Made by a program: the position numbers and the translations under genes
NCBI GenBank assembly: GCA_964019415.1
Contig: OZ025869.1
Coordinates: 4,466,765-4,530,764, forward strand
Length of the DNA: 64,000 nucleotides
Direction of reading: 5' to 3'
DNA from: Ianthella basta
Taxonomy: Eukaryota > Porifera > Demospongiae > Verongiida > Ianthellidae
Part shown: positions 18,345-34,250 of the stretch, one piece after another
Position numbering within the stretch: position 1 is the stretch's first letter
Layout: every line of letters starts with the position of its first letter
The notes under the pieces: generated by a model
What the model saw: the letters and a program-made list of their open reading frames with translations, nothing else
What the model was told of the DNA's origin: nothing
Databases searched by the model: none

Positions 18345-19269
18345 TCAATTTGAGGCGTGTATGAGTTCTTGATGGCTTATTGAAGCCCTTGTGGTGGTAA
18401 ACTCTAGTTCTCGTACGGCTCTTAGAGATGTAGATATAGGGTCTTCTCCAAATGTTGAAGAAAGAGTGAGCTCACCACCCATATCATGGTAACTGGAAAT
18501 GGCTTCGTCAGAGGTTGGAATAATGTGGGGAGGGACTTTTGCCGTCCTATTGTCCTGATTCATCCTAACATTAGGAATCCCCTTTCCTGCATTGTATTAT
18601 GAGTTCAAAGACATACGAGCATTATTATGTAGATTCATAGTACAGAGCATGTAGCATAAACACTGAACAGAGTATACAGTCTGTGACAATAATCATGCAT
18701 TTTCATTTAGATAAGGAGTTTCATTGTCATGCAGACCATAAATTGCACAATGTCATATGCATGTGCATGTCTTTTCAGAGTATTTCAGTGCATATTATTA
18801 CTTGGTATAGGATGCTCATTCCAGACCTGTACAGTCTGTGCTGCACCAAATTTTGCCACATGTAAAGCAAACCATGATGTGCAAAAACGATCTACTGGCG
18901 AATCCATATCGATGGCACCTTCTTCCATTTTCACCAATATCTGTTTGATGGGATAGTTAACACGCTTAATGAACTCTACCCACAGTCGTTCTACAGGATG
19001 ATTCTACAAGGATGAGTGTAAAATACATGACTGTTACAAGTATATGCATAATATACAGTACAAGGTAGTATCATGCAACATGCAACAGAATTTAGTATAA
19101 TTATAGGTTTATAATGCTTGCCTGTTTGGAAGTAGTCTGCAAATGAGGATCTCTCGAAGTGTTTGTGCGATGACTTGCAAGCTGTTCTTGGATATACAAA
19201 CCCAAGACCCACTCTATTCCCTTATCCGTCCGCACTTGATCCCAAAGTCCATATTCAATCATCATCGGT
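18345..19269 (-). pseudogene. Integrase-type transposase, 3' half (transposon A)
   Basis: Three minus-strand exons can be read. Exon 19269-19122 has GLWDQVRTDKGIEWVLGLYI, with the second catalytic Asp. Exon 19003-18802 has NHPVERLWVEFIKRVNYPIK, with the catalytic Glu. Exon 18586-18345 runs from GKGIPNVRM to a stop and includes IIPTSDEAISSYHDMGGELT. The splice sites fit, the first exon using a GC donor (GCAAGC). The last bases of the preceding exon (VYKHLFR, ending at a donor near 19420) remain. The N-terminal helix-turn-helix and first catalytic Asp are gone, replaced by unrelated sequence, so this is a truncated relative of the complete gene at 23193-25141. Confidence 0.8.
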
Positions 19270-19434
19270 CTACAAATGGGGGCATATAGGTCCTAAGGAA
19301 GTGCATGTTATTACAGTGATATCCATAATATACATTCACACAACATTAAAATGCGATTATGAACTGTATTTACTAGTGAAATATAGCACTCATAACGTGT
19401 ACTTGCATTATACCTGAAGAGGTGCTTGTATACT

Positions 19435-20060: not shown

Positions 20061-20229
20061 CATCATTGTTACATCGATACATCCACCAAGCCTGTCACAC
20101 ACAAGGTTGGCTCTGATCGCTTAGTGAAAGGCCTTGGGTGATCCACCCATTGAGGAATGGAACACGGTCTGGTGCACAAGGAGGTGCGCCTTTCCAGTTG
20201 CTTCTTGTTTAGAGTCATCCTCCAGATAG

Positions 20230-20716
20230 ATCAATTCCACGTCTCATATTCCTAGCTAAGTTCGTACAACGCACACAAAAACACCCGGTTTAAGGAAGAG
20301 CTGGAAAGGCAACACACGTACACACAGATAGCGCACATATGCACAAGCATGCAAGCGCACACCCAACGCGTACGTCTTCCACGCGCTCACAGGCTTCCAG
20401 ATCATGATCAACGTCGTTGAACAGGCGGAGTTGCTACGCGATGGCGCGGTAACACTTGAAGCCAAGAGTTGCAGTGTCCAGGTTAGGGGTTGAGCTCTTG
20501 CACAAGGGCAAGAGAGCTAAGCGCCGTGACCCAGATGCCACAGAAGCGCCTCTCCAGCAGACCCGAATTTGGTACAAAACAAGGAGGCTTGCGGTCCCTT
20601 CCATTTTGTCACTATACACTGATTTCCCAATTCTACAGTCATTGCAAATTGAACTGGGAACGCAATCATCCGTTTTTCGATTTTTGGAAAATTGAATGGC
20701 CGAAAGGTACCCGGAC
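20230..20716 (-). mobile_element. Transposon A, right terminal region
   Basis: The right end reads ...AAAATTGAATGGCCGAAAGG and finishes ...CCCGGAC at 20716. This is the same terminal pattern as B (...ATTGAATGGACCAAAGATCC...CCACGGAC). Further in, the GCGCTTAGCTCTCTTGCCC-like and CAGAAGCGCCTCTCC blocks also match B's arm. The left end of A was not found. Confidence 0.7.
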
Positions 20717-21320
20717 CGAGTGGCAAGTTCTTCTTCAGCGTCCAGAGAAGAATGCTTAAGGTAAGAGGTAGCATCATGGGGATATTCGTACAGATCCACA
20801 AAGCAGAGTGGCTTCTTCCCATGTGGACACTGTGTGTGAACTAGGCATCCTGGGTGGATTACATGATAATGTAGAGTACTAATGTGTCGATGTTATGTAT
20901 GTATGTACATATAGTTCTTCTAAAATGGCACTAGATATAATAACATACCTGTCAAATGTGTCTTTATTTGCCATAAGTTTTGAGTAGATTTGCTCTCAGT
21001 AGATGGCTTTGGCAAGTTTGTCTTGGACTGATCCATCCCATCTATGATGAGTGTGGTGTTTGTGTGGCTCTTCCCAAGCTTTCTGACGGCGACTATTATA
21101 CTTTGCTCTCTCTGAACTGCGAAGTGTGTGTACGCAATGCTCTTAATCCTGTAAAACCCTCATATGACACATGCCCTAATGTAATATAAACCTTGATTTT
21201 GTCTTTGTCGAGGTTCAATAAGCTGACATTGACAGTACATCACATCAGATAGTGTGAAAAACTACAATCAAGGATAATGTGTGTTATAAAGTAGAATGAT
21301 AATGGAAGTCATCATACAAG

Positions 21321-21844
21321 GTCCGTGGATCTTTGGTCCATTCAATTTTCTAAAAATTGCAAACACGAAAATCGCCTTCCCGTTTCAATTTTCAATGACA
21401 GTGGAATTGGAAATCACGGTAATTCCTCGTTTAATGCAAGCCCTCTAGTTCTTTGCCAAATTCCGGTCTGCAGGAGAGGCGCTTCTGTGGTACCTAGGCC
21501 ACGGCGCTTAGTTCTCTTCCCTTGCGCAACTCCTCTAACCCTAACCCTGGATAGCACAGAGCTTTGGCCACTTCCAAGTAGCTACGTCTACTCCGGTGCC
21601 ATCGCGTGGCAGGTCAGGTGCTGTTCGTCGTGCGCGCTGTCTGTGGCGTGCTGGCCTCTCTACAAAACGTCTGCTGACAGGTGGAGTGGTAAAAGATGCA
21701 GCAGCAGGCGATGATCGCCTCCTTGTGCACCAGACTGTACAACCCTTCTTCGGTATGTGAGTTGTCTTTCCCATACAGCCAGATCCCTTGGTGCCAATGT
21801 GTGTGACATGGTTGTGGGTGTATTCATAGGTGTTTGCGTGTGTA

Positions 21845-21916
<72 letters not shown>

Positions 21917-22801
21917 TGTGTGTGCGTGTGTGCGTGCGTGTGTGTGTGTGTGTGTATGCATGTGTGCGTGTGGTACATGCATGTATGTGTGTTTGTGTGT
22001 ATTTCTGTGCCTGTTTGCCTGTCTATGCATCTGCCTGTGTGTGCATGCATGCGCATGTTTCTGGGTAAGGGTGTGCATGTGCAGTGAGTGCAGTTATGTA
22101 TTTATGTGTTTCTGGGTGTGGTGTGGGTGTGCAATCTTCATGTGGAGAGGGTTGTTTGTGCATGCACACCTTTGCATGTTGTGTATGTGTGTCTCGTGCA
22201 TATTGTGTGTGTTTGTGGGTCTTGTCTGTGCAAGTATTGTGTGTGTGTAAAGGTATGTTGCTTGTAGTGTGCATGTGTTGAGTGTGCACGTGCAAGTGTT
22301 CCACATGATCATGAGTGTCCAAGGGTGCTGTGTGTGCACACATGTGAGAGTATAATGTGTATAATGTACACTATGTCATTCATTTGCATGTGAGTTACAG
22401 TGTTTGGGTGAGTTACTGTGTTTGCATGTGAGTTACTATATTTGGGTGCATATGTTAATTACTGTGAGTGCTTGTGTGTGTGGTGCATGTGTAATTACAT
22501 ATATAATAGGTTTATAGTTGTGCGTATTGCGCCTAATTTGGAAAGGGCATTGATGTGCAGTAGGCCAGGAATGTCATATGGATGGTCCAGTGGGTGCCTG
22601 TGAATGGTATGAGCAATCTGGTAGATGTTTTGCTTGGCTGCACTGTACTGATGAGGGCCAATAGCCCGAAACATCCATCTGGATGGATGTCTGCAGTTTG
22701 CCATGATGGAAGGGAGTGAAGAGAATGTGAGTTAGGGAGGAGGGAGAATATGTAGGAAGGGAGAGGGCCGGCTTTTATTCAACATTCGCTGCAGGATGTG
22801 G
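21321..22801 (+). repeat. Left terminal inverted repeat of transposon B
   Basis: About 1481 bp, mirrored by 28525-29985. From the outside in: a conserved terminal block, CTCTAACCCTAACCCTGG at 21532, a long (TG)n tract at 21846-21935, a TG-rich zone, and the hammerhead motif at 22642-22697. Identity to the other arm stops at 22801 (GGATGTGG). Peptide frames that appear twice in the window in opposite orientation are this arm and its mirror, not genes. Confidence 0.9.
22642..22697 (+). ncRNA. Hammerhead ribozyme motif, left arm of B
   Basis: The core is complete. Stem I is 22642-22647 with 22692-22697 (6 pairs, one G-U). CTGATGA is at 22648-22654. Stem II GGGC/GCCC has the loop CAATA (22655-22667). 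GAAA is at 22668-22671. Stem III is 8 pairs (ACATCCAT/ATGGATGT) with loop CTGG (22671-22690). The GTC cleavage triplet ends at 22691. All invariant hammerhead core positions (CUGANGA, GAAA, NUH) match. Stem I is the open helix (type I). Such motifs are known in Penelope-like elements and retrozymes. Finding one in a DNA transposon's inverted repeat is unusual. Confidence 0.85.
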
Positions 22802-22842
22802 TGAATGGGTGTATAGGTGGGTGTGGATTGCTAGGGGTATAG

Positions 22843-22856
22843 TGTGTGTGTGTGCT

Positions 22857-22923
<67 letters not shown>

Positions 22924-22927
22924 TTGT

Positions 22928-22967
<40 letters not shown>

Positions 22968-22990
22968 ATTTGTCTGTGTGTATGAGTGTG
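22843..22990. repeat. (TG)n microsatellite
   Basis: Long TG run with few interruptions, just inside the left arm of B and outside the mirrored region. Open frames here encode only Cys/Val or His/Thr runs. Confidence 0.95.
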
Positions 22991-23192
22991 TATGTCTGTG
23001 TGTGAGTGAGTGTGTGATGTGGATGTGTGTGTGTTACTGTATGTGTATGTATGAGTGTTTACATACGTATTATCATTGTGTACAATTTGTTTGTGACACT
23101 GTGATCAATAATGCCTGCACATACTGCGTATAGTATATATACTGCAATTAGTTTGTAATCATTGATTTTGGATTAGGACACTCAACTTAAAA

Positions 23193-25141
23193 CTAGTTTT
23201 GATGGATAGTACTTGAAAGTCTTTCTGTGATGCTAATAAAATAGAGCAAGGACTGTTTGAAAAGTGTACTGTCATTATTTACAACTTGGTGATAGATGGG
23301 TTCCAAGGATGGGAATCGCTCAGCAAAAGCATCATATCTACATTGTTGCAGATCCCTTCTCCCATCCAGTGGATCTTTGCCAAATTCAGAGATCATGTGT
23401 AGTCGCCCTCCAGTCTGGTGGAAGTCTGCCACTGCTTCATCCGGGGTAGGAACTAGCACTGGGTTTACCCTAGCTGCTCTGCTAGTCCGCGCCATTTGAT
23501 TTGGTATTCCTTGACCTAATGAGATGAAGTACAAACAAAGATGCATGATGACGGCAAAGTCAGTACCACCATCTATGCATATATACGGAATACCGGTTGT
23601 ACTTATGCATAATATGATGTACATGTATAATTAATCCCCTTTTGTGAAGATGACACACCTGGTATATGATGGTCATTCCAGGCCTGTACCGCCAATGTTG
23701 TCCCGACTGCAGCCACTCTTATTGTAAACCATGAAACACAGAAGCAGTGTGTAGGGTCCCTTTGGTGTTCGGTTCGGATGTCATGATTGTTCTGCATCTG
23801 TACAAGAACATTCTTGATAGGGTAGTTCACCCTCTTATTGATCTCGACCCAGAGCCGTTCAATTTTGTGGTTCTAACAATGGCAGAAGTATAATGTAGGA
23901 GTATAATATAGGAAATCCGCAAAAGTGTATATTCATTGTACATGCATGGCTAGTGTGGATGCTATATAAATAGCTAATAGTGAGCATTGGCATTATATGG
24001 TCATTCATCCATCAATGAATGAGCGTGATGGGACATCTGTGATGCCAACAGTGCAATTAACACAGACCTTCTTGGAAGTGCTTTGTAGATGAGGTGGCCT
24101 TGCTGTGTTAGTTCGCAAGTGGGCCAATTGTTCTTGCACAAACAATGACAAGACCCACTCCTTCCCCTGGTCTACTCTTACTTCGTCCCATAGCCCATAC
24201 TCTACAATGAGAGGCCTGTTGGGTATGATAAAACACAGTCATTGCATGTGTGTCCCACTAATCATGCTCAGTATATTCCATCATGCTTGCTTGTACGTAA
24301 TATATATAAGTATTTCCGGTTATATGCATGTGTGGAGTTACCTGAATAAATTTGCATATATTTCAACATTGTTCTTCACAGGCATAGATATGAAGCCAAC
24401 AATTTTGCTGCTGAAGCCATCTATAGCTGCAATGTGTGTAACTCCGAACATTACCAGCTTCTCGTTCTGGTCAATGTGAATCTTGTGCCCATAGTACTCG
24501 GCAAAGTATGGATGAGGATTAGTTTCACTCTCCACCTGTTGCACCCTTCGATAATGGTACTGAGGCTGCACTTCAGCCAGAGCATGGCCAACCTGCTTCT
24601 CACCAGCTGATATGCCTTGTGACCGCAGTAAACCTGTCATAGTTTTTCGGCCATAAGTTGGACCCACCTAGATAAGTAAGAAATCCTGAATGACATCCCA
24701 CTCAAGTAAATGCATTTTCTGTTGTTGCATTTGGTTAAGGACGATGGATCAGTATGTGTGTAAACGCACATAGAAATTGTGTATAATTATTAATGTGGTG
24801 CCAACCAGCCTCTCTCGCGCCCGCGGGGAAGATCGAAGCTGACGCACATGGATTAGGGGATAACAAGCGGCATGGCAAGGTGCATCACGCTGTTCTCTTA
24901 CTTGGCTTACGGCCGTTGCAACGACTTTCCTCAGTTCGTTGTGGCTCAAGCGTGAGCTTCTTCGGATTCCATGCTCCTCGCAGAAGCGTCGGACGCTGCG
25001 AATACTGAAACCCCTCTGGCCAGGATACTTCGTGCAAAGCTCTTCACTTATTTCTGCATATGTGCTCCCTTCTTCTCTTCGCTTCAGAATTAGCTCTTCC
25101 TGATCCAAAGAAGGAATGTCGTTCAAACTCGCCATCGTCAA
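23193..25141 (-). CDS. Integrase-type DDE transposase of transposon B, five exons
   Basis: My exon model is 25141-24902, 24667-24342, 24215-24068, 23872-23659 and 23515-23193. All have GT-AG borders and together give 1251 nt, an exact 416 codons plus stop. Exon 1 holds a helix-turn-helix DNA-binding region (YAEISEELCTKYPGQRGFS...RSVRRFCEEHGI). Exon 2 starts VGPTYGRKTM and has the first catalytic Asp (GHKIHIDQNEKL) and AAIDGFSSKIVGF. Exon 3 has the second (VRVDQGKEWVLSLF). Exon 4 has the Glu (NHKIERLWVEINKRVNYPIK), followed by VQAWNDHHIP. Exon 5 is GQGIPN... and ends with a conserved C-terminal domain (VPTPDEAVADFHQTGGRL). The fold matches rve-type integrases (about DD38E). Start at 25141 or the in-frame Met at 25135. 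It cuts and joins the transposon ends. Likely functional as read. Confidence 0.88.
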
Positions 25142-25191
25142 CTTCGCGCGCGCTATAATATTATACGTACGTAGGCGGGAAAAGGGGCCAG

Positions 25192-25258
25192 CTGACAGCC
25201 TAGTCTGGAGACCAGACCCTAAGCGCCCTAGGGTCTGGTCTCCAGACTACTGACAGCC
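25192..25258. mobile_element. 49-bp perfect palindrome with 9-bp target duplication
   Basis: The insert 25201-25249 is two perfect 21-bp inverted arms (outer end TAGTCTGGAGACCAG) around the 7-nt loop AGCGCCC. CTGACAGCC sits at 25192-25200 and again at 25250-25258. It lies about 50 bp upstream of the integrase start codon of transposon B. It looks like a minimal MITE or hairpin insertion. 8-9-bp duplications are typical of Merlin elements, but no Merlin end can be shown. Confidence 0.85.
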
Positions 25259-25603
25259 AAAATTGGTAGCCATTTTCACAATTGCAAATCTCCATGATTG
25301 TCCCAATGGCATATATAGGTGTTCATATCCAGGAGAATTGGGATTTTTTATTTTGGAATGGGAATGGAATCTTGTAGGAAGTCAATGCAAAATCATACAG
25401 CACAACTCAAGGAAAACAATTAAGATCATCTGCCTCCGTGCCATGGAATGGAAAGAAATACAAGTGAAGAGAAAAAAGAAAGAACTCAAGGACCTGGTAG
25501 CTATTTCAGAAAATGCGTAGCTGTATAAGGCGTTCCAAGCTAGCTATATGCAACTTGACACATCGCAAACAAATGTTGTCTATCTATGATAACAGATGTA
25601 CGT

Positions 25604-26953
25604 TTATGATGACCGGCTCCCAGCTACTTGCTCTGGCTCAGGATTTTGGCTTCCAAGTTTCCTTACTTCTTCAATGAAGTCATCCAGTCCATGTAGTCTA
25701 GCAGTCTGGGCATATCCCCTTGCCTGCTGACAAATGGGACAGTTCTTGCTTAGCCCATCAGCACCCGTGAACCATTGATCAACACAGGTTTGGCACCCTA
25801 CGATGTTGGTGCAGCATCGAGCCAGAATGACCGGCGGAATACAGGGTGCGGTGTGGCATATTTTGCATCGAAATGCATCCTCGGCCCCTGTCTTGAATGT
25901 GATAGGCATGGCTCCGCTGTTAGCCCAAATGGCTAATTGCATGTCTTCGATGCTTTTTTTCATGCTTTTCAGTTCTTCCACCACTTGTTGCTGTTCAGAA
26001 GAGGACTGTGTGATGACAGTTGATTCTTGGGAGTTTGCCGTGGTGTTTTGGACAAATGTAGCTTTGCCCCTTAACTCCTGTTTGTTGACTGCAAATAGCT
26101 TCCTACTAGGGGTCTTCCAAAACTTCACACCTGTGAGGAAATGTAATGCATGTGAAATCATAAGTTAATTATGAGACACAATGTCATAGTATTGCCACAA
26201 CGATCATTCCTATATGATATGTACCTGCAATGATTGCAGTGTTCATGCTATACATGTACAAATTGGTAGCCATTTAATAGCCCAGATGCCTAAATCCACT
26301 CCCATGGGTAGAGTATTACGTAACCAACTACTTCATTGGGAACACATCAAGCTGTACATACCTCTTGTTCCAGGCCCATCCTTTATTTCAAGGCCATCAT
26401 TTGAAACAATTATGTAGTCAGGTCCAAACTGCTCCCGTACCGATCTTAACATTGCAGGAAGGTCTGCATTGTCTTCATGGACATCAACAAAAATGACATC
26501 CACGCTGTTAAAGATAGGCTTGCCATTCTGAGCATATGACAAATGCGCCCGAACGACCTTCACCCTGGTTCCCGTTTTTCTGCTTGATACGGAGTGGAAG
26601 ATAGGTCTTCCGTGGCTGGCAGTTACTGGAGTTACAGGAGTTATCACTGTAGTGCTACCGCCAATTGGTGATATCTGCTCTTGGGTCTGCGGGGTGGTAG
26701 GGGGAACACCGTTTACTCTGACTCCGTACGCGATTGCGGATGCGTCCAAAGCGAAAGAGCCGCTTTCATTCGGAATGTAAATTCTGCTGCCAATTGTCTC
26801 TTGAAGCCACACTGTGTCTGGGTTGAGGTTGAATATGAGCGCAATTGCAGAAGCCGTTACCTGGGAAACATTGATCTCCACTTCTCTGCTCTCGCGTGCC
26901 AACGTTATGCTACTGGGAACACCCGATCCTGATGTACTGAGAAACGGCTCCAT
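25604..26953 (-). CDS. RING-like zinc-binding accessory protein of transposon B, two exons
   Basis: Exons 26953-26362 and 26130-25604 (GT-AG) join in frame to 372 residues. Exon 1 encodes an N-terminal domain of unknown fold (TVWLQETIGSRIYIPNESGS) followed by a Pro/Thr/Gln-rich linker. The exon then ends with a compact domain (HSVSSRKTGTRVKVVRAHLS...VSNDGLEIKDGPGTR). Exon 2 starts GVKFWKTPSRKLF, then a likely coiled segment (QQQVVEELKSMKKSIEDMQL), then a RING/U-box-like cluster: CKIC, ARCC, GCQTC, CPIC, and RGYAQTARLHGLDDF at the C-terminus. The same architecture occurs at 31878-33081, so it travels with this transposon family. Proteins of this design accompany integrase elements in fish and cnidarians as I recall them. 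A ubiquitin-ligase role is only inferred from the RING-like cysteines. Confidence 0.8.
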
Positions 26954-27619
26954 TACTTATAACTATAGCTCCGACTACGGGTAACTACGGCTTACTGTCA
27001 CGTAGCTGTACCAGATCATTAATTTTGGTCACGGACTGAATAGGTCGGCTCGACTCGACGATTAGAAGTCACTTTTCCCATGATTTGGCGCCGAAATTTA
27101 CCAACGCCACCTGTTTTCCCGCGTACATGCAACTTTAAAGGAAGTGCTATAATATGTTTGCACCTTGCACTATCAATAAGGCTAGGCTAGGCTAGAAGTA
27201 TACGTAATTATAATTTGTTCTTTTATATCTATGCTGTTGAATAGGTCAATATACAGCAAATCTTGCTTGAGGGTGCACTAAATGGAACACCACCACTACC
27301 GTGGTAAAGCTTGATTCTGGATGCAGCTTCAAATACAAAAGACAGCCCCCAGCTTATACACAGAATGACTAGTTCACACATGTACAATCGTTTCAGGGTC
27401 TCTAGAGATGCTCGCACACTACACACTACAATAGCTCACATCAATATACGTAGTTATGAGTATGAATTTAGTATAATAGCTAGTTCAGGGGTTGGCAAAG
27501 TCACTTCACTGGAATCAGTTGTGGGGATTCACTTGATCCTTCTGTGGTATATTTTCCCTCTTATCCCTATTCTATTGTACACAATGACAATACGTATGTA
27601 AACACTCATACACACACAT

Positions 27620-27662
27620 ACAGTAGCACACACACATCCACATCACACTCACTCACACACAG

Positions 27663-27735
<73 letters not shown>
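27620..27735. repeat. (CA)n microsatellite inside transposon B
   Basis: Near-pure CA run at 27663-27733 with interrupted CA before it, in the interior of B between the RING gene and the right arm. 27740-28520 downstream is non-coding, with a short match to 19870-20010 of transposon A. Confidence 0.95.
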
Positions 27736-27737
<2 letters not shown>

Positions 27738-28524
27738 AACAATCACTGTGGCATTGTGTGGCTCAAGAAAGTATTGTAAAAGTTCATGGGTGACCAAGCT
27801 GTTGGGGCTAATAGCTCTCCTACAACGTACACATTTGCTACTACATACGCAAGGATACACCATGTCGTAGATAGGCATGATTGGTAGATAGTGCCCATAC
27901 CACCATGGAAAGTCAGTCAGTGTAAGTGGACAGGATCGCATGGATCCCTTGTTGCCCACAACACTGTTGACTTCACCTGCTGAGTATGGGACAAAACATA
28001 TGCAGTTAAGACCGCAATCGGCACAGATGCATACACACTCAAATGAACATGTGCACCACCAGCATGTATAACATTCAAGTATGATGTGTACAGTACAACA
28101 CTTGGCACACAGATATACATACACTCACGCACAGTGCACACACACCACACACTGACGTCAATTCAACCAAACATGGGTATACACATACATACATACAGTA
28201 AATGTAAAATGTAATTAAACCTATATCTCCATGATATAGGGTCTGGAAGTGAGACTGATCGACTGATCCATGTGACTGTAGTACAGTGTGCTATATCTCT
28301 GTGTACATTTGTTAGCCTCTCCAGCTGTTCATTAAAACACACACGTACACACAACATGCAGGCACACACACACACACACACACACAGACACCCCACACAC
28401 ACAAGCAATACACACCCACCGACCCCCCCACACACATTATACTCCTGGCTAACCATACATACATCCCATATACAGGCACACACAGTGAATCAAAAGTGCA
28501 CATGTGCACACACAAGACAATTTG

Positions 28525-29413
28525 CCACATCCTGCCGCGAATGTTGAATAAAAGCCGGCCCTCTCCCTTCCTACATATTCTCCCTCCTCCCTAACTCACA
28601 TTCTCTTCACTCCCTTCCATCATGGCAAACTGCAGACATCCATCCAGATGGATGTTTCGGGCTATTGGCCCTCATCAGTACAGTGCAGCCAAGCAAAACA
28701 TCTACCAGATTGCTCATACCATTCACAGGCACCCACTGGACCATCCATATGACATTCCTGGCCTACTGCACATCAATGCCCTTTCCAAATTAGGCGCAAT
28801 ACGCACAACTATAAACCTATTATATATGTAATTACACATGCACCACACACACAAGCACTCACAGTAATTAACATATGCACCCAAATATAGTAACTCACAT
28901 GCAAACACAGTAACTCACCCAAACACTGTAACTCACATGCAAATGAATGACATAGTGTACATTATACACATTATACTCTCACATGTGTGCACACACAGCA
29001 CCCTTGGACACTCATGATCATGTGGAACACTTGCACGTGCACACTCAACACATGCACACTACAAGCAACATACCTTTACACACACACAATACTTGCACAG
29101 ACAAGACCCACAAACACACACAATATGCACGAGACACACATACACAACATGCAAAGGTGTGCATGCACAAACAACCCTCTCCACATGAAGATTGCACACC
29201 CACACCACACCCAGAAACACATAAATACATAACTGCACTCACTGCACATGCACACCCTTACCCAGAAACATGCGCATGCATGCACACACAGGCAGATGCA
29301 TAGACAGGCAAACAGGCACAGAAATACACACAAACACACATACATGCATGTACCACACGCACACATGCATACACACACACACACACACACGCACACGCAC
29401 ACACGCACACACA

Positions 29414-29461
<48 letters not shown>

Positions 29462-29985
29462 TACACACGCAAACACCTATGAATACACCCACAACCATGT
29501 CACACACATTGGCACCAAGGGATCTGGCTGTATGGGAAAGACAACTCACATACCGAAGAAGGGTTGTACAGTCTGGCGCACAAGGAGGCGATCATCGCCT
29601 GCTGCTGCATCTTTTACCACTCCACCTGTCAGCAGACGTTTTGTAGAGAGGCCAGCACGCCACAGACAGCGCGCACGACGAACAGCACCTGACCTGCCAC
29701 GCGATGGCACCGGAGTAGACGTAGCTACTTGGAAGTGGCCAAAGCTCTGTGCTATCCAGGGTTAGGGTTAGAGGAGTTGCGCAAGGGAAGAGAACTAAGC
29801 GCCGTGGCCTAGGTACCACAGAAGCGCCTCTCCTGCAGACCGGAATTTGGCAAAGAACTAGAGGGCTTGCATTAAACGAGGAATTACCGTGATTTCCAAT
29901 TCCACTGTCATTGAAAATTGAAACGGGAAGGCGATTTTCGTGTTTGCAATTTTTAGAAAATTGAATGGACCAAAGATCCACGGAC
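28525..29985 (-). repeat. Right terminal inverted repeat of transposon B
   Basis: Mirror of 21321-22801, about 1461 bp. The main differences are the length and phase of the CA/TG tracts (29371-29460 here) and single substitutions such as CGCACAAGG at 29577 versus CCTTGTGCAC at 21720. It contains the second hammerhead motif on the minus strand. Confidence 0.9.
28629..28684 (-). ncRNA. Hammerhead ribozyme motif, right arm of B
   Basis: Exact mirror of the left-arm motif. CTGATGA, the GGGC/GCCC stem II, GAAA, the 8-bp stem III and GTC are all unchanged, with the predicted cleavage site at 28635 on the minus strand. It points inward and lies upstream, on the sense strand, of both genes of B. A transcript started in the right arm would therefore carry it in its leader. 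Confidence 0.85.
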
Positions 29986-30725
29986 CATACAAGTTCTGAA
30001 TAATGTTTTTGACTTTAGTCTATAATAGGATCAGGGATGTCACCGGCCAGAATACAAAGGTGGAGCTCTGCCAGATCCTCTTCTTTTTTATACAAAGTTA
30101 TGTTCTGTCTTCTCTTCTGCAGACAAGCTCTCACAATCACTCCTGATGGGTGCAAAGATGAATGTATATAAATGCTATCGTGCAACAAATGTCATAACTA
30201 CTGAAATATTAGTTTCATGCGATCTAAGTTGAATTTAAAGTTTTTCAAAGTTTATACATTTGGGTTTCGGGGAATGGTCCGTGGATCTTTCCGCCATTCG
30301 ATTTCTCAAAAATTACAAAATTGAAATATTAGGGTGCGACTTCAATTCCCATATCGCTTCAAAATGGAAGTTGGCCTTTGCTTGCATTTCTTCAACAAAC
30401 GGCTTTACTCGTAGTTTTCGAGGAGACGAACAAGCCTACTGTTCAGGCGCGCTTAGCTCTCTGTGTAGCCGCCCACCCAGGAGCAATCTCCGTTCCAAAT
30501 CTGGGCTGGAAAGCCGTTCATTTTGCTCAACATCTCCAGCAAAGCAGAGGAGCTTTCTACACACTGCACTGCATTGCGCTGAGGAGGCCGATCGTGACTC
30601 CCCCCTGCTGGTGGCACTGTTGCTTCCCATGTAGTCGATGACGAGTGACCTCGAGTTCGTTTGCGTAGCGCGCTGCATTGCAGCCTTCAATTTGTAAGTT
30701 CTGTTTGTGTGTCCTGTAGGAGTAA

Positions 30726-30926
<201 letters not shown>

Positions 30927-31021
30927 ATGCATACGTGCATTTGTCTGTTGGGCAGCGAGTGTGTACAACTGCACCGTCATATGAACAGTATTGACAACAA
31001 GTGTGACCACATTCGCTCCCA

Positions 31022-31076
31022 GCAAACCTGAAGATGGCCTGGTATTGGCCAAAACGCATATTTGTGCGTCATTTGC
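31022..31076 (+). ncRNA. Hammerhead-like motif in transposon C
   Basis: CTGAAGA (fits CUGANGA) at 31028-31034, stem II GGCC/GGCC, stem III ACGCA/TGCGT with a 6-nt loop, GTC ending at 31070, and 5 pairs of stem I after one mismatch at the junction. The conserved G of the GAAA box is A (AAAA at 31051-31054), so it is probably inactive. It occupies a position comparable to B's ribozyme, inside the terminal region. Confidence 0.55.
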
Positions 31077-31136
31077 ATTGGAGTGTCTATGTATATTGCA
31101 TCCTCTTGGACACAATGACAAGTATACATGCAGTGG

Positions 31137-31180
31137 TTGCAACTATATAGGTGATTTGTCAATGTGTGTGGTGTGGTGTG

Positions 31181-31243
<63 letters not shown>

Positions 31244-31262
31244 TGTGTGTGTGTGTGTGTGT

Positions 31263-31298
<36 letters not shown>

Positions 31299-31440
31299 AT
31301 CTGTGTGTGGTGTGATGTGATGTGTCAGTGTGTGTGGTGTGTGTGGTGTGGTGTGTCAGTCAATGTGTGTGTGGTGTGGTGTGATGTGTGTCAGTGTGCG
31401 TGTGGTGTGGTGTGGTGTTGCAACTATATGGGTGATTTGC
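31137..31440. repeat. TG-rich block between direct repeats
   Basis: GTTGCAACTATATAGGTGAT-type sequence at 31136 recurs at 31418 as GTTGCAACTATATGGGTGAT. Between them is TG/TGTGG-rich DNA with several GTGGTGTGGTGT runs. Confidence 0.8.
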
Positions 31441-31877
31441 GCCTGTCTGTACAATCACATACGGTGTACACTTAGTCTTTATGGCGGCTGCTTCTGTCAT
31501 ATTGGTTACCTGGATATTGATTGTGTATGTACATTATATGTAATTATGTACATTGGCATATGCATGTGCACGTGCATGGTGTTTGGCATGTAAACAAAAC
31601 CGCACCGGGTACGGTGCTGATGAAACAGATGAGTCAGCTGCATCTTCTGATCATGTGCATGTCACATGCACACACTACTGTCACGAGAATTTGCCCTGCC
31701 ATATAAACTGGAACTCAACTCAAAAAGTACATGCGATAAAGCCAAAAGGAATGGAAGTCAGAACAGAAATAGCTACAGAATGTTTTCAAAGTAAAATGAT
31801 TGAAATCAATGTAAGTACAAGTCTGAAGTGTATATCTAAATTTTGGGTTGAGCCTTAGTGCTAGCTACTGGTCCTCT

Positions 31878-33081
31878 TCATTCCTCTGCGTTGTCAAGGA
31901 GCTTGGATGTGTCCAGGAGTTCATCAATGCCATGGAGGCGCAATGTGTTTGCATAACCCCTGTCACACTTGCAGATGGGGCACACTTTTGTTAGAGCTTC
32001 TGGCCCCGAGAACCATGCATCCATGCATGTCTGGCAGCCTAGAATATTGGAACAACATTTGGCCAGTATGATAGGCAGTGTGAATGGGGAGCTTTGACAG
32101 ATCTTGCATTTCAAGCAGTCCATCAGACTCTGTTTCAAAGCTGACAGAAAATTGGCAGACATCCCCCACATACAAGCCTGCAACGCTTGTATGTCTCTGC
32201 GCAAGGCATTAACAGTGCCTACAACTGTTTGCTCGTCCTCTTGGGAGTTGCTGGCCGTGGTTACTGGAGTGGGTCTGTGGGCCTTCCCTCGAAGTTGTTG
32301 AGAATCGACGACATAGAACTTGCGGGCAGGACTTCTCCAAAATGTGAAGCCTATCAGGGAGCAAACAAGTGACTGTCAGAACACATTCATATATTAATTA
32401 AATTGGATTATTAATATCTATCTATATGTAGTTGCTTCATTATAGCTAACAAGTCTTAGAGTGAACATGACTAAAAAACATACCCCTTGTTGCTGGGCTG
32501 TTCTTTATCTGCAGACCATCGTTTCCAACAATGGTGAAATTCGGTCCATATTCACTTTGAACTAGTGCCTTCATGGAATTTACGTCGGCATTGTCATCAG
32601 TGAGGTTGACAAACATAGCATCTATGTTTGTAAAGATGGACCGACCATTCCCTGTGTACGCTACATCTGAGCGTACAAATTTCACTTTCACCCTGGTAAC
32701 GTTCTTCCTGCTGGTGACGGAATGGAAGAAAGGCGGCCTCAACGCAGAAGTTGATACGCTAGATACAGTGACCGAGCTGTTAGGCGTGCTAGCGTTCTGT
32801 GGCTGTGGCGTTGTCGACCCATGTTGACTGTTAACCCCATTTACCGTCACACCATGGACGTTTGACGAATGTCTGGAGAGACCCTCGAACCTTCCTTCGT
32901 CGTCGGGGATATAGATACTGCTGCCTATGTGGTCTTGTAGCCAAACAGTAGCTGCATCAAGGCTGAATACAAGTGCGATACTGGTTGTAGTTATTTGTTC
33001 CACGCTCATTTCTACTTCCTTTGTACCGAAGTGCAGGGTGACAGTTTGACTGCCGGCACTGAAATCATCCTCGTAATCCAT
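31878..33081 (-). CDS. RING-like accessory protein of transposon C, two exons
   Basis: Exons 33081-32484 and 32350-31878 join in frame to 356 residues. They parallel the 25604-26953 gene domain for domain. The landmarks, in order, are AATVWLQDHIGSSIYIPDDE, FHSVTSRKNVTRVKVKFV and NDGLQIKNSPATR. Exon 2 then starts GFTFWRSPARKFYVVD and ends in the cysteine cluster CKIC, AKCC, GCQTC, CPIC followed by RGYANTLRLHGIDELL. Sequence identity is only moderate, yet length, splice positions and all cysteines are kept, which argues for selection on the protein. It looks intact. Confidence 0.78.
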
Positions 33082-33225
33082 TGTACCGTGGCGTGTGAGA
33101 TCCAGTACACCTCCTTGGTGAGCAGTTCTCGATTCTTCCTGAGATTTGGCGCCAAAACCACCGCTGATTTCAATTTCCTCTCACGTTATAAGTATATAGC
33201 TAGCTATGTAGAGTCTATTCGTGAA
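33082..33225. promoter_or_regulatory. Divergent intergenic region of transposon C
   Basis: About 144 bp separate the RING-gene start (33081, minus) from the integrase start (33226, plus), so both must be driven from here. The sequence includes TATAAGTATATAG at 33187-33199, a possible TATA element for the integrase. Inference from layout only. Confidence 0.45.
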
Positions 33226-34250
33226 ATGGCTGCAGGCTTCTCCATAGAGGTTCAACAGTTTATCAAGGAGTCGAGAGAGAATGGGAAGACGCATCAAGGG
33301 ATAAGTGTCCGTTTGCAGGAATTGTACCCGGGTCAGAGAGGGTTCAGTGTAAAAAGTGTAGAGAGATTTTGTCAGCAGCATTGCATCCCCAAAATGTCAC
33401 AACTACGAGTTTCTGAACTTCGGCGCATGGTTGCTACTGCTGTTAGCCAAGTAAGTACCAGTTTATCTTGCAATCATAGTGATTTAGTTAAGCTACTAGG
33501 TAGCAAGAGTTCAAAGCTCACTCAACCAGGTAGCTAGGAGTTGTGATAGTCCCATGTAGGCATCACCTGGGCTTAGCGATGACAGGTTTCACTGTAGTAG
33601 AACAAAGGTATGTATGTCAGTTCGAGTGATTGCTGCATGTGTACTTGCATGCCAGGTATATTTCAACTACAGACTGTCTTATATATGCATGCACAGGTTG
33701 GTCCAACCTATGGCAGAAAGACAATGCAAGGTTTGTTGTGGTCCCAAGGGATTGTTGCTGGAGAGAAGCAAGTTGGACATCCGCTAGCGGAAGTGCAACC
33801 AGATTATTATTTAAGGCGCCTCACAAGAACAGAGTCAGAAATGAATCCTCATCCCTACTTCTCACAATATTTCGGTCACAAACTGCACGTGGATCAAATT
33901 GAGAAATTATCCATGTTTGGAGTGACTCATGTAGCAGCGATAGATGGATACAGTAGGAAAATTGTTGGATTCATAACTTTACCTGTCAAGAATAATGTTG
34001 AAATGTACAACCATCTTTTCAGGTAGGTTAAAGGCCTAGGTGAATGTACTGATATTTGCTGTAGCTGCATTATCATAGCCTATTCTTTACTTGCTCTGAT
34101 AGACCTATTGTGTTAGATTATGGATTATGGGATGAAATCCGTGTTGATCAGGGGAAAGAGTGGGTTCTCTGCTTGTTTGTGCAAGAGAAGCTGGCTCCTT
34201 TCCGTACAAATCAGGAAAGACCACCACATCTTCAGAGCACTTCTACCATG
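33226..34250 (+). CDS. Integrase-type transposase of transposon C, first three exons
   Basis: Exons 33226-33450, 33697-34022 and 34103-34250 give 233 codons in frame. Exon 1 has the helix-turn-helix (LQELYPGQRGFSVKSVERFC). Exon 2 has GPTYGRKTMQGLL, the first catalytic Asp (KLHVDQIEKLSMFG) and AAIDGYSRKIVGF. Exon 3 has the second Asp (GLWDEIRVDQGKEWVLCLF) and ends at donor GTATGC. The exons that should supply the catalytic Glu and the C-terminal domain were not found before 35 kb, so the gene is 3'-truncated and cannot be catalytic alone. Confidence 0.82.

Follow-up and report, generated by a model that had tools for sequence, protein, structure and literature searches.

A type I hammerhead ribozyme motif lies in each of the two terminal inverted repeats (TIRs) of transposon B, an element in the genome of the sponge Ianthella basta (GenBank assembly GCA_964019415.1, contig OZ025869.1, positions 4,466,765 to 4,530,764 of the forward strand; this stretch of 64,000 nucleotides is referred to as the window, and positions are counted from its first letter). 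Comparison of B with its relatives in the same genome indicates, at the level of sequence, that the type I hammerhead is a recurrent and structurally constrained part of the long TIRs in a lineage of DDE transposons (rva_4, IS3-like) with a RING-like gene. We are nearly certain that the hammerhead in the B arms is real and conserved. We further propose that its working principle would be the cutting of transcripts that run inward across an arm, a reading to which we give a probability of about 0.6. Transposon B and its hammerheads have the following parts:

21314..21319, left target-site duplication ATACAA, just before GGTCCG and found again just after the right end
21320..29986, whole transposon B, with inverted termini GGTCCGTGGATCTTTGGTCCATTC; the copies L012 and L013 lose their match at 21320
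21320..23086, plus strand, left TIR, with GT repeats in its inner part
22634..22703, plus strand, left-arm type I hammerhead including the outer part of stem I (from motif reading, fold, descriptor and family covariance model)
23196..25135, minus strand, transposase gene of about five exons with a Pfam rva_4 integrase core
25604..26953, minus strand, RING-like protein gene of two exons (about 26953-26336 and 26161-25607)
27574..29986, minus strand, right TIR, with CA repeats and extra sequence in its inner part
28623..28692, minus strand, right-arm type I hammerhead, the mirror copy (from family covariance model and descriptor)
29987..29992, right target-site duplication ATACAA

With TIRs, a target-site duplication and a DDE transposase, B is a cut-and-paste DNA transposon. 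It is 8,667 bp long, with a 6-bp duplication and long inverted arms of about 1.75 kb, whose two outer stretches are 98% complementary (the right repeat at 28520-29986 being about 98% complementary to the left arm). The ends of its copies and the ATACAA duplication thus replace the limits of 22642 and 28684 given in an earlier, sequence-only reading of the window. Both genes lie in tandem on the minus strand. The transposase exons run roughly over 25135-24812, 24667-24341, 24238-24094, 23872-23630 and 23522-23199, with splice sites read by eye, and the three joined core-exon translations scored 61.4 bits against Pfam rva_4 (cut-off 26), with D, D and E standing in conserved motifs by eye. Among the best 120 of 277 matches, the closest named relative of the transposase is from Amphimedon queenslandica (64%), and relatives at 45-56% come from the sponges Corticium, Dysidea, Oscarella and Halichondria and from many fish, cnidarians and a brachiopod. 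The second gene is putatively RING-like: its exon 2 reached no Pfam cut-off and gave no RING match, and its homologue in relative H (below) resembles RING families at scores below the Pfam cut-offs. No reverse transcriptase match was found in the seven exon pieces of B that were scanned. A near-perfect palindrome, CTAGTCTGGAGACCAGACCCTA...TAGGGTCTGGTCTCCAGACTA, lies at about 25200-25250, just upstream of the transposase start.

A type I hammerhead has three helices with an open stem I, and its core is defined by CUGANGA, GAA, A15.1-U16.1 and H17. All of these core elements are found in the B motif, and the predicted fold has the three helices with an open stem I. CTGATGA begins at 22648 on the plus strand and at 28678 on the minus strand, followed by a 4-bp stem II (GGGC/GCCC, loop CAATA), GAA, an 8-bp stem III (ACATCCAT/ATGGATGT, loop CTGG) and a 6-bp stem I (ACTGTA/TGCAGT, including one G-U). 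C17 is at 22691 (+) and 28635 (-), and self-cleavage is predicted 3' of each, with new 5' ends at 22692 (+) and 28634 (-). The minimum-energy fold of 22632-22706 (-25.6 kcal/mol) is exactly this hammerhead, with stem I extending through an internal loop (TGC/TT) into an outer TGGC/GCCA helix; its z-score is modest (-2.03), with 7 of 200 shuffles folding equally well. Sequence, fold and descriptor therefore agree with the complete type I hammerhead that the sequence-only reading had described in both arms, although that reading, correct for the core, had overlooked the outer stem I helix and the internal loop.

The descriptor, which combines the core with a 4-bp stem II, a 6-bp stem III and a 6-bp stem I, matched the window twice, each time at a B-arm motif, and had no match in 300 approximately dinucleotide-preserving shuffles. 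A family covariance model scored 28623-28692 (-) at 99 bits, a score that is not independent because the model was built from the same family. Across the 209-Mb genome, the core pattern with up to three mismatches found 47 sites and the reversed pattern none, and a gapped core pattern found 61 against 0; the core pattern is strict and misses divergent motifs. Exact core scans of viral and prokaryote contigs gave 0 matches.

Two further copies of B were found, in C5 and C1, and the hammerhead was identical in all five B arms that reach the motif position. The C5 copy has its outermost 370 bp or so unmatched at one end, one arm was seen of the C1 copy, and the window copy is the one complete copy seen. 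B copies without the motif, which the sequence-only reading had named as a sign of chance insertion, were thus not encountered, and the hammerhead is part of the inverted repeats in relatives H and C as well. Relative H has six copies (C2, C3, C6, C14, C15 and C22). The copy read through is about 9.17 kb long, with termini GGTCAGTGTACC, 1.47-kb arms that are 99.9% alike, and the same gene pair as B in tandem. The motif is present in 12 of 12 H arms, always facing inward. By eye, 6-base duplications flank three of the six H copies (AACTCC, AGGAAA and AAACAG), and no target-site duplication was seen by eye in the other three. A DNA search gave eight copies of relative C, which has the same two genes; in the copy of which both arms were read, the genes diverge from the middle, and despite this both arms carry inward hammerheads. 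In all nine elements with both arms read (B 2, H 6, C 1), each arm has an inward hammerhead. Relative J (C2:8343-8350 kb, with like sites on C21) has two core sites on each side of its transposase with a mirrored 461-bp spacing, and at C1:6421443 a further relative combines a transposase with a single inward motif. As a separate observation, relatives are nested in one another at C2:8335689-8350620, a cluster in which H-like, B-like and double-motif sites all occur.

To relate the motif to the transposase, we took 28 transposase loci, defined as clustered matches at about 45% identity or more. A core-pattern site lay within 6 kb of 22 of them (0.08 expected by area), and 20 had a site of their own within that distance; these 20 are not independent cases, because the H copies are near-identical and so are the C copies. 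On the other hand, none of 31 distant transposases had a core-pattern site within 6 kb. Of the 61 pattern sites, 35 were within 6 kb of a transposase at about 45% identity or more, and 26 were farther away.

The arms have otherwise diverged. Between B and H nothing is shared beyond the ribozyme core, GT-type repeats and the 24 bp at the termini, and between H and C, compared without the ends of C, the sole significant match is a 30-base core. Against the L017 arm, B has 90-95% identity at 22600-22719 and 62-75% in the 80 bases that follow; the rest of the arm, leaving aside simple repeats and the outer end, is mostly at 0-60%. The stems change with their pairing kept: stem I is ACTGYA/TGCAGT in the B-like families and GTTGCA/TGCAAC in H, both paired, the outer stem occurs as GGC/GCC, GAG/CTC, GTC/GAC, GGG/CCC and AGA/TCT, and stem III, long in H, varies in its distal part between types while remaining paired, with loops of 4 to 64 nt. 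The unpaired parts that may form a contact between loop II and the stem I internal loop are kept while the stems vary (loop II CAAYA in 11 and internal loop NGC in 15 of 16 sequence types). Over the 16 types, pairing holds in 293 of 304 cells, and 8 of the 19 pairs are changed on both sides; none of 2000 column shuffles reached the pairing figure, and 47 of 2000 reached the two-sided figure. Six of the types (B, L015, C, L031, H and E-left) have a transposase match within 6 kb, and the other ten are tied by arm homology to B or H, except I, L102 and L103, which are tied by nothing. Because these three sit among the 16, we repeated the test on the six: pairing holds in 110 of 114 cells, and 7 of the 19 pairs are changed on both sides, with 0 of 2000 shuffles reaching the pairing count and 1 of 2000 the two-sided count. 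The decayed motifs at 31028 (in an older neighbouring element), L030, L032, L044 and L057 were left out of both tests.

Several observations weigh against a conserved ribozyme in this lineage. The Rfam scan of the whole window at gathering thresholds gave no hammerhead match, and below threshold the 131-base left arm scored 21.3 bits for HH9 (cut-off 52) and 21.9 bits for RAGATH-1 (cut-off 56.3). Seven of the eight C copies show one motif site each, in one arm only; L044 has lost stem II; the C14 arms L030, L032 and L057 have broken cores or stems; and the stem II closing pair is mismatched in L034, E-left and the J sites (A.A or C.A in J). Among the transposase loci, two of the 22 with a nearby site are B's neighbours in the window, the site being B's own, and six of 28 have no core-pattern site within 6 kb: a four-copy family, C2:7914423 and C4:1339842 (C59:27589, C5:7987192, C2:5169901 and C2:9309011 being the others of the six). 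The sequence types are related, so that the two-sided change is largely one split between B-like and H-like forms; the stems were placed by maximising pairing, and the shuffles ignore both kinship and placement. Within ten B-like sequences alone, covariation was not above that of shuffles. The missing Rfam hit had itself been set down beforehand as an outcome that would tell against the hammerhead, and at the gathering threshold that outcome did occur. However, the gathering score is a curated threshold and no chemical criterion, and we consider the miss outweighed because of the genome-wide recurrence and the compensatory changes.

In the mechanism we propose, an RNA that crosses an arm inward, whether its transcription began in the flanking host DNA or within the outer arm, would cut itself once after C17, and the element body would thereby be separated from the flank and the outer arm. 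The 3' arm of each RNA would be the complement, leaving one active copy per transcript. Since the arms are inverted, each RNA would have one active copy, and therefore no retrozyme-like circles would form: there would be one cut per transcript, from either side. Such a cut could free the element body from transcripts that read in or begin in the outer arm, taking off their cap; it could also split the 5' arm off a transcript whose two arms would otherwise pair with each other as long double-stranded RNA. Uncoupling from read-in and outer-arm RNA together with limiting the arm-arm duplex is probably the likeliest use, although taken by itself we would put it somewhat below even odds. The cut in B and H leaves about 395-445 bp of arm on its inner side, which counts against the limiting of duplexes, because arm-arm pairing would be prevented only in part. 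We hold more tentatively, and as rather doubtful, the wider proposal that a TIR ribozyme serves as a symmetric transcript cutter throughout a lineage of animal DNA transposons, with one cut in the arm from either side, and that this shields the element, or else its host, against RNA that reads in, is capped antisense or is double-stranded. The same ribozyme device may also be present where related transposases occur in fish, cnidarians and other sponges.

An unlikely alternative is that transcription of the genes starts at a promoter in the arm and that the ribozyme trims the 5' leader from the mRNAs, setting their 5' end or lowering the transposase dose, much as the sequence-only reading had suggested for the right-arm copy and both B mRNAs. 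The genes of B and H are in tandem, with the ribozyme of one arm upstream of both in sense, and spliced leaders from the arms are possible. However, the distance from the cut to the first ATG is 1.7-2 kb (about 1.7 kb for the right arm of B), E2F-like or GC-rich stretches occur near the gene starts in B, C and H, and the C genes diverge, each facing away from the arm with the sense ribozyme. The promoter reading rests on short motifs, and H and C also hold one E2F-like match inside a gene, which weakens this argument. We favour inward cutting over leader trimming because the inward orientation of the ribozymes is common to all of these elements, while gene order is not, the genes of C being divergent and those of B and H tandem, and because the short motifs suggest gene-adjacent promoters.

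It is improbable that the motif is a passenger, that is, a hammerhead acquired in the distant past from a Penelope-like element, a retrozyme or a subtelomeric repeat, whose copies have stayed alike through arm homogenisation. The genome does hold other hammerheads (18 matches to RF00163, and sites near contig ends), the arms within one copy are homogenised, as in H, and decayed arms occur. Yet the B and H arms are nearly unalignable outside a core that was kept with compensating stem changes, and homogenisation in one copy cannot preserve a motif between families, which therefore counts against a passenger. Of the retroelement capture suggested earlier, a recent single-copy event is ruled out and the ancient capture survives as a rival.

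Still less probable is a function at the DNA level, in which a binding site for the transposase or a host factor merely resembles a hammerhead. The stretch is present in both arms, and among the B-like families conservation extends some 50-60 bp upstream of the motif; that upstream stretch is not shared with H, however, and the two-sided stem changes, the range of stem III loop lengths and the kept internal loops suit an RNA. Chance resemblance, for which the missed Rfam gathering scores and the modest folding z-score might be cited, we regard as negligible, and both it and a single-copy insertion were rejected on the empty shuffles and the 47 and 61 genome-wide sites against 0.

Retrozymes have long terminal repeats that are direct repeats, whereas B has two inverted copies and no transcript with two active ones. 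Like B, they are mobile elements with a hammerhead in terminal repeats, and their RNA is circularised (PMC4918200, PMC9695139); this and the following comparisons concern the portions of the cited sources that were covered. Animal and plant hammerheads have been placed in Penelope-like elements, Terminons, retrozymes and satellite-like repeats (PMC7761336, PMC6431247, PMC8490949). A type I hammerhead is conserved inside the terminal repeats of Penelope-like elements and Terminons (PMC7761336, PMC6431247), as in B, but these are retroelements, whereas B has a DDE transposase and 6-bp duplications. The Penelope-like motifs are minimal, lack helix III or tertiary loop contacts and stand in tandem (PMC7761336), whereas the B motif is full, monomeric and inverted; the direct (tandem) arrangement typical of Penelope-like elements and retrozymes is thus not found in B. 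In R2 an RNA fold like that of the hepatitis delta virus (HDV) ribozyme frees the element RNA from an upstream co-transcript (PMC3414825), and an HDV-like ribozyme is named for L1Tc in the title of a reference in PMC7761336. Our proposal for B is similar in that the ribozyme would part the element RNA from an upstream co-transcript, but R2 and L1Tc have the HDV fold and need the RNA as a template, while a DNA transposon does not. The W-elements of Schistosoma mansoni have hammerheads shown to be functional and no complete transposase open reading frame found (PMC8490949). They are, like B, repeated and putatively mobile DNA with hammerheads, but they are satellite-like, and the passages covered of PMC8490949 place no hammerhead in transposon arms.

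By its features, the transposon group nearest to B is IS3EU/GingerRoot, with an integrase-type DDE core without HHCC and usually 6-bp duplications (PMC10045372) and TIRs of more than 30 bp (PMC12730594). Their termini are TA..TA, occasionally TG..CA in GingerRoot (PMC10045372), whereas those of B and H are GGT..ACC, and because of this difference B was not filed in that group. The RING-like gene and the arms of more than 1.4 kb also set B apart. The word hammerhead has no occurrence in PMC10045372, nor ribozyme in PMC12730594. No hammerhead or other self-cleaving ribozyme within DNA-transposon arms was found by title or abstract start, a search in which full texts mostly went unread and subscription journals mostly fell outside, and word searches of the review PMC6155905 (transposon, transposase, inverted repeat) and of PMC7229834 (inverted, transposon) gave no occurrence. 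Within that coverage, the earlier statement that no such case had been described holds. In the same literature, animal hammerheads are associated either with satellites or with the RNA-templated retrozymes and Penelope-like elements. If our reading is true, self-cleavage would also serve transcript control in DNA transposons, which need no RNA template. These results suggest that some orphan genomic hammerheads may mark DNA transposon arms.

The window also holds remains of related elements beside B:

30276..34243, older neighbour element of a B-like kind with its terminus at 30276, a RING-like gene on the minus strand (33045-31896) and a transposase on the plus strand from 33241
31028..31080, plus strand, decayed hammerhead-like motif in the arm of this neighbour, about 750 bp inside its end (by eye)

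The right end of the older neighbour was not found. Its motif mostly retains stems I-III, with GAA changed to AAA, and is missed by the family covariance model. Relative A is represented by an end at 20216-20717 with terminus GGTCCGGGTACC and transposase remains at 18435-19292 (-), where the same model found no hammerhead. At about 51272 (-) the window contains CTGAAGAAGCCCGTGATGGGCGAAACGTTGCA, in which a hammerhead-like core and a stem II can be read but no stem III is evident, and a similar one is present in L006.

Elsewhere in the genome, no core match was found at L045 and L046, sites like L044, and no hammerhead at L065 beyond its stem I-like stretch. Family I, with CTGAAGA at 11 sites, has a hammerhead fold and includes one inverted pair 4.05 kb apart; it was not counted as a B-type transposon because no transposase match is near. 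Six further H-like motif sites were found, and two of them, L102 and L103, fold as hammerheads. There are also further sites resembling GAGTGCACTGCACTGATGA. The hammerhead core CTGATGAGGGCAGAAGAAGCCCGAAACA occurs at several places near contig ends (for example C2:15727864, C7:9566567, C19:29067 and C23:25468) and perhaps represents a subtelomeric, Terminon-like family. The non-B hammerheads read by eye among loci L001-L008 are different, with a very short stem III, and L004 (C17:2836979-2840023) has three such hammerheads in both orientations within 1 kb.

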